A DNA stretch of 64,000 nt, taken from Nitrosovibrio sp. Nv4 (GTDB lineage Bacteria; Pseudomonadota; Gammaproteobacteria; Burkholderiales; Nitrosomonadaceae). The stretch spans positions 25,901-89,900 of the forward strand of contig CAMAPK010000007.1 of the NCBI GenBank assembly GCA_945860135.1. The letters run 5' to 3'. How positions within the stretch are numbered: position 1 is the stretch's first letter; the number at the start of each line of letters is the position of its first letter. Both the position numbers and the translations under genes were made by a program. Below the pieces are notes generated by a model. It ran no database searches, was not told the DNA's origin, and saw only the letters and a program-made list of their open reading frames with translations. Shown piece by piece: positions 44,903 through 45,004 of the stretch.

Positions 44903-45004
44903 CATTATCTCCCGGGCTTTTATCCCTCCGTGGAGCCTCGTCATGACGAGACCGGAAACTCTCGGACCAGACGCTCCCAGTTAAGGCAGCCGGAACCCTA
45001 GTTT
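44903..45004 (-). promoter_or_regulatory. Guanidine-I riboswitch (ykkC class)
   Basis: Minus strand CTAGGGTTCCGGCTGCCTTAACTGGGAGCGTCTGGTCCGAGAGTTTCCGG...CCACGGAGGGATAAAAGCCCGGGAGA matches recalled ykkC consensus elements (AGGGTTCCG, CTGGTCCGAGAG, ACGG.GGGATAAAAGCCCGGGAGA). Confidence 0.92.

Follow-up and report, generated by a model that had tools for sequence, protein, structure and literature searches.

In the window, by which we mean the whole 64,000-nt stretch of DNA analysed here, a standard guanidine-I riboswitch very probably turns on, in response to guanidine, an operon of only two genes, a permease and a guanidine carboxylase; the carboxyguanidine deiminase CgdAB would have been cleanly lost from this operon and the remaining pair kept under selection. 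We hold this reading at about 90%. The riboswitch part is already well known, and earlier work on betaproteobacterial ammonia oxidisers shows the same riboswitch-permease-carboxylase setting (PMC11410670). In its shortened form the operon is a new variant: no description of it turned up in the literature searched, though one may exist.

The organism

The organism is an uncultured relative of ammonia-oxidising bacteria, and is itself likely an ammonia oxidiser; an ammonia monooxygenase match was found in two of the nine genomes of the genus, the window's own not being among them. Its genome is a draft of 2.04 Mb, 89% complete, and the genomes lacking CgdAB with which it is compared are likewise drafts, the range being 82-99% completeness. 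Carboxylases 88-95% identical to that of the window come from Nitrosomonadaceae MAGs, one of them labelled Nitrosospira sp., and from one MAG labelled Nitrospira. The latter, Nitrospira sp. palsa_1310 (L139, 1466-7925), carries the permease and CgdAB, and its carboxylase shares 88% identity with that of the window; a riboswitch was not found on this locus, and the stretch preceding its permease looks as if it had been replaced. Its 'Nitrospira' label may reflect gene transfer or a binning error.

The guanidine-I aptamer

44907-45012, minus strand: guanidine-I (ykkC subtype 1) riboswitch aptamer (RF00442, 94.7 bits, model positions 1-107)

The original prediction had recognised a guanidine-I core on the minus strand, and all the motif strings that it quoted are indeed found there. 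A covariance-model search with RF00442 had been set beforehand as the refuter. The element passed it, since cmscan over the 64-kb window matched Guanidine-I at 94.7 bits against a gathering score of 63, over positions 1-107 of the 107 in the model (E 6.5e-16). The coordinates first proposed, 44903-45004, designated the right locus but lie 4 to 8 nt off those of the match. No competing RNA family appeared at the aptamer: in a narrow permissive rescan, the sole other match with E≤10 was a chance-level mir-221 (13.7 bits, gathering 46.6). No guanidine-II switch was found in the window.

The ykkC classes are built on a common scaffold, and for this reason we considered a subtype-2 element, sensing ppGpp, PRPP or nucleotides. 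The strength of the guanidine-I match, the lack of any other RNA family near it and the adjoining genes, which are guanidine genes, make this extremely improbable. The aptamer lies upstream of genes for guanidine transport and metabolism on its own strand. The permease ATG, at 44770, is 136 nt from the aptamer 3′ end, in line with the ~130 nt announced, and the carboxylase follows; both had been foreseen as an APC permease and a carboxylase, and Pfam, NCBIfam and the key residues bear this out, the carboxylase being of the guanidine type. A plasmid search with the leader returned only short matches to the aptamer core. Guanidine-I riboswitches occur in 102 of 127 Nitrosomonadaceae genomes, and that of the window is an ordinary member of this well-described class, predicted to bind guanidine.

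Expression platform and leader

44878-44916, minus strand: predicted expression-platform hairpin, also predicted in most related leaders
44848-44860, minus strand: Shine-Dalgarno-like AAAGGAG stretch before a short upstream ORF
44782-44847, minus strand: predicted short upstream ORF, MYLHSIFLSLPVADQADLLPG (sequence and leader comparison)

In the aptamer's last helix the 3′ strand is CCCGGGAG, which would also make up the 5′ arm of the hairpin; as they share this strand, the two structures would be mutually exclusive. Most leaders in a set of 70 distinct ones are predicted to form a similar competing hairpin. Across 14 aligned leaders, from the genus and Nitrosospira-like, pairing holds in 95.2% of cells against 31-49% when the partner is slid; the pair changes are one-sided only (G-C to G-U), none being two-sided, and hence lend the hairpin no covariation support. 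The window leader folds somewhat better than its shuffles (z -2.15). A terminator scan found neither a U-run 3′ of the hairpin nor an intrinsic terminator in the leader, and no sigma-70 promoter was found by consensus.

That a hairpin sharing the last-helix sequence has been kept across relatives makes a ligand-on switch by mutual exclusion likely, as we infer from this conservation together with earlier studies of the class (PMC12186494). Guanidine binding would hold the last helix of the aptamer and thereby keep the CCCGGGAG strand out of the downstream hairpin, which would otherwise presumably halt expression, by termination or another route. The permease would then import guanidine, which the biotin-dependent carboxylase would convert with ATP to carboxyguanidine. 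CgdAB, normally next in the pathway, would have been cleanly deleted in this Nitrosomonadaceae branch, with selection acting on the remaining pair.

Between the hairpin and the permease, the start codon of the short ORF and the strong Shine-Dalgarno-like stretch before it are found at the equivalent place in all six genus leaders and in most Nitrosospira-like ones. The first codons are similar (M-H/Y-F/L-H/Y-S) and the 3′ part is not conserved. In many Nitrosomonas leaders the permease itself begins at this start site. This ORF could encode a leader peptide, or its start could simply be left over.

Permease and carboxylase

43295-44770, minus strand: APC-superfamily permease, 491 aa, predicted guanidine importer (PF13520, 113.6 bits)
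39699-43313, minus strand: guanidine carboxylase by alignment, 1204 aa (TIGR02712, 1941.5 bits, cut-off 1303.85; Pfam domains)
41220-41222, minus strand: codon of Asp698, the guanidine-versus-urea site, aligned to K. lactis Asn1330
40452-40454, minus strand: codon of Asp954, aligned to K. lactis Asp1584
39810-39812, minus strand: codon of Lys1168, the biotin-carrying lysine (ESMKME), by alignment

The NCBIfam model nearest to the permease is TIGR03428, 'permease, urea carboxylase system', at 154 bits, under its cut-off of 740; permease dN/dS within the genus is 0.04-0.10. The carboxylase has biotin carboxylase, carboxyltransferase and biotin carrier domains (Pfam) and matches the K. lactis urea carboxylase structures 3va7 and 5i8i. 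As TIGR02712 carries the name urea carboxylase, guanidine and urea enzymes are told apart by residues, a guanidine carboxylase having Asp at K. lactis positions 1330 and 1584 (PMC11410670). Both aspartates, Asp698 and Asp954, and the biotin Lys1168 are kept in all 52 aligned relatives, and by this residue criterion the window enzyme is predicted to be a guanidine carboxylase. A urea carboxylase was rejected on account of Asp698, and no allophanate hydrolase was found. A search for a second carboxylase copy in the window genome returned a single full-length match only.

A shortened operon

43308-43348, minus strand: junction of the lost CgdA-CgdB, where the permease 3′ end and the carboxylase start overlap by 19 nt, likewise in G003 and G006

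In relatives, within the family and outside it, the operon begins with the riboswitch; a permease or a different transporter comes next, then CgdA and CgdB (together the carboxyguanidine deiminase) and the carboxylase, often with allophanate hydrolase after it. CgdAB is gone from four genomes of one genus, those of the window, G003, G006 and G001: the permease and carboxylase genes overlap in the first three and abut in G001. The original prediction had not remarked on this absence. In G007, of the same genus, CgdA and CgdB stand between them. PF09347, the family of CgdA and CgdB, had no match in the window genome (G000), G001, G003 or G006 (89, 99, 82 and 95% complete, respectively), two in G007, and is present in 102 of 127 Nitrosomonadaceae genomes. 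It is absent from G002 too, where the contig stops inside the permease and the operon order is hence unseen. Among 80 related loci fetched by carboxylase sequence, a few with the carboxylase near a contig end, CgdAB lies beside the carboxylase wherever upstream sequence suffices, except at L137 (G003) and L140 (G006).

Could CgdAB be there all the same, hidden because assemblies are incomplete or chimaeric? The draft state of the genomes and the contig end within the G002 permease leave some room for this. However, the junction is internal to contigs in four assemblies, and its flanking genes are common to the window, G003 and G006, two of which come from different sites (Hainich groundwater and Lake Pavin). 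Moreover, the same search recovers both subunits in G007 and in almost all carboxylase-bearing relatives. We consider such an oversight very unlikely.

The later steps were searched for as well. The best allophanate hydrolase match (TIGR02713) in the window genome reaches 164 bits against a cut-off of 511, none is above the cut-off in G007, and neither allophanate hydrolase nor urease was detected in the genomes without CgdAB (window, G003, G006, G001). The complete guanidine carboxylase pathway was accordingly not found in the window genome, both CgdA/CgdB and allophanate hydrolase being wanting. A guanidinase as replacement for the deiminase was rejected, no arginase-family protein being found in the window genome, G001, G003 or G006.

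In G007 (L061), ~140 nt lie between the permease 3′ end and CgdA. The ends of this piece are inverted (GGGCGCCTCTAAAAATTC ... GGATTTTTAGAGGTGCCC), and it may be a small mobile insertion by which the permease lost its C-terminus.

Number of losses and selection

In a maximum-likelihood tree of the carboxylase, the window groups with G006 and then with G003 (100/100 and 99/99), G007 forms a separate pair with a partial G008 sequence, and G001 and G005 sit on a long branch (0.31). The well-supported branches imply at least two changes of CgdAB state, and CgdAB would need to have been lost twice on this tree. The palsa_1310 locus, with CgdAB, falls in the same clade, a position that fits an ancestral presence of CgdAB; judged on this placement alone, a regain by G007 is possible.

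Carboxylase dN/dS is 0.131 for window-G006 and 0.129 for window-G003, all without CgdAB, and 0.125 for the G003-G007 pair. The dN to an outside sequence, G126, is 0.105-0.110 without the deiminase versus 0.101 for G007, which has it. These near-equal distances indicate no clear acceleration after CgdAB loss in the window/G003/G006 branch. For G001, dN to the window is 0.159 for the carboxylase versus 0.089 for the permease; this larger change of the carboxylase, with the longer G001/G005 branch, makes an altered constraint possible there. The carboxylase is thus still kept under selection after CgdAB loss.

Why keep a carboxylase without its deiminase?

Carboxyguanidine is reported to revert in water to guanidine and CO2, so that a carboxylase without deiminase would run an ATP-consuming futile cycle (PMC8390497). 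By the accepted pathway, then, carboxylation without the deiminase wastes ATP, yet the pair and an intact riboswitch were kept after two separate CgdAB losses. The retained pair points to a missing enzyme of guanidine metabolism or to a different use of guanidine carboxylation. We give about even odds to the guanidine-controlled pair working without the deiminase, either because an unknown enzyme processes carboxyguanidine or because carboxylation has a use of its own. The most likely reason, but a guess, is that carboxyguanidine has passed to an unrelated enzyme whose gene lies elsewhere in the genome; behind such an unlinked enzyme we rank slow decay and some use apart from nitrogen release.

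Decay would mean that the shortened operon is a remnant of a pathway no longer used, its carboxylase merely not yet lost. The pathway is indeed incomplete at several steps in the window genome, allophanate hydrolase and urease being undetected as well, and the long carboxylase branch to G001 and G005 goes in the same direction, as does the departure of G001 at several otherwise fixed positions. But in four genomes the frame stays open through 1204 codons, dN/dS lies near 0.13, the key residues are retained and the aptamer is almost unchanged. Furthermore, dS between post-loss genomes is 0.35, time enough for decay, and none is seen; we find a decaying remnant unlikely. We give a similarly low weight to the carboxylase and permease now serving guanidine detoxification, control of its level or another substrate, the deiminase being unneeded. 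That precisely CgdAB disappeared on two separate occasions, while the riboswitch and the other two genes stayed, does suggest that the pair has its own use. Against this stand the futile cycle expected from the reported carboxyguanidine reversion (PMC8390497) and the unchanged substrate-selecting residues, and detoxification would have little need of an importer. Setting G007, with CgdAB, beside G003, G006 and the window, without it, offers a ready natural experiment. Guanidine use is a current question for nitrifying bacteria, whose relatives these are.

Comparison with known systems

The window resembles the Nitrosospira/Nitrosomonas system (RF00442, ykkC-yxkD; PMC11410670) in its aptamer, its position, the permease, the carboxylase and the predicted competing hairpin; it differs in having no CgdA and CgdB between permease and carboxylase, and in that allophanate hydrolase and urease go undetected in its genome. 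With the pathway of Pseudomonas syringae, Raoultella, Klebsiella and Vreelandella (PMC12186494, PMC12508155) it shares a riboswitch-controlled carboxylase with guanidine-type aspartates, but it has an APC permease rather than an ABC importer, lacks the deiminase and allophanate hydrolase, and showed no guanidine-II switch. The plan of a riboswitch before two genes, for a permease and one enzyme, is common to the window and the guanidinase operon of comammox Nitrospira (guanidine-I switch, APC permease, Ni guanidinase; PMC11410670), whereas the window enzyme is an ATP-dependent carboxylase and no arginase-family protein was found in its genome.

Neighbouring genes and paralogues

The divergent upstream TonB receptor was rejected as part of the system, as it is not beside the operon in G003, G007 or G001. 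In the window this TonB-dependent receptor gene (45275-47605, plus strand) misses ~196 bp near its start relative to G006, a gap that breaks the frame between signal peptide and plug domain; the G006 version is intact, at 849 aa.

The full-length carboxylase of N. europaea and N. eutropha is divergent and has its own riboswitch. A second, shorter carboxylase paralogue of ~760-800 aa (L183 686-2971, L180 728-3013 and L178 682-2961, all minus strand; L141 2157-4439, plus strand) has the carboxyltransferase and biotin carrier domains without the biotin carboxylase domain, and similar ones occur in ~13 genomes of the family. N. europaea, N. eutropha and some Nitrosospira carry it within the CgdAB operon, its frame open and both aspartates and the biotin lysine retained. 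Finally, a second partial carboxylase of G008 (L105, G008:C163) clusters with Nitrosomonas-like sequences and has an allophanate hydrolase after it; it is possibly a contamination or a second operon.
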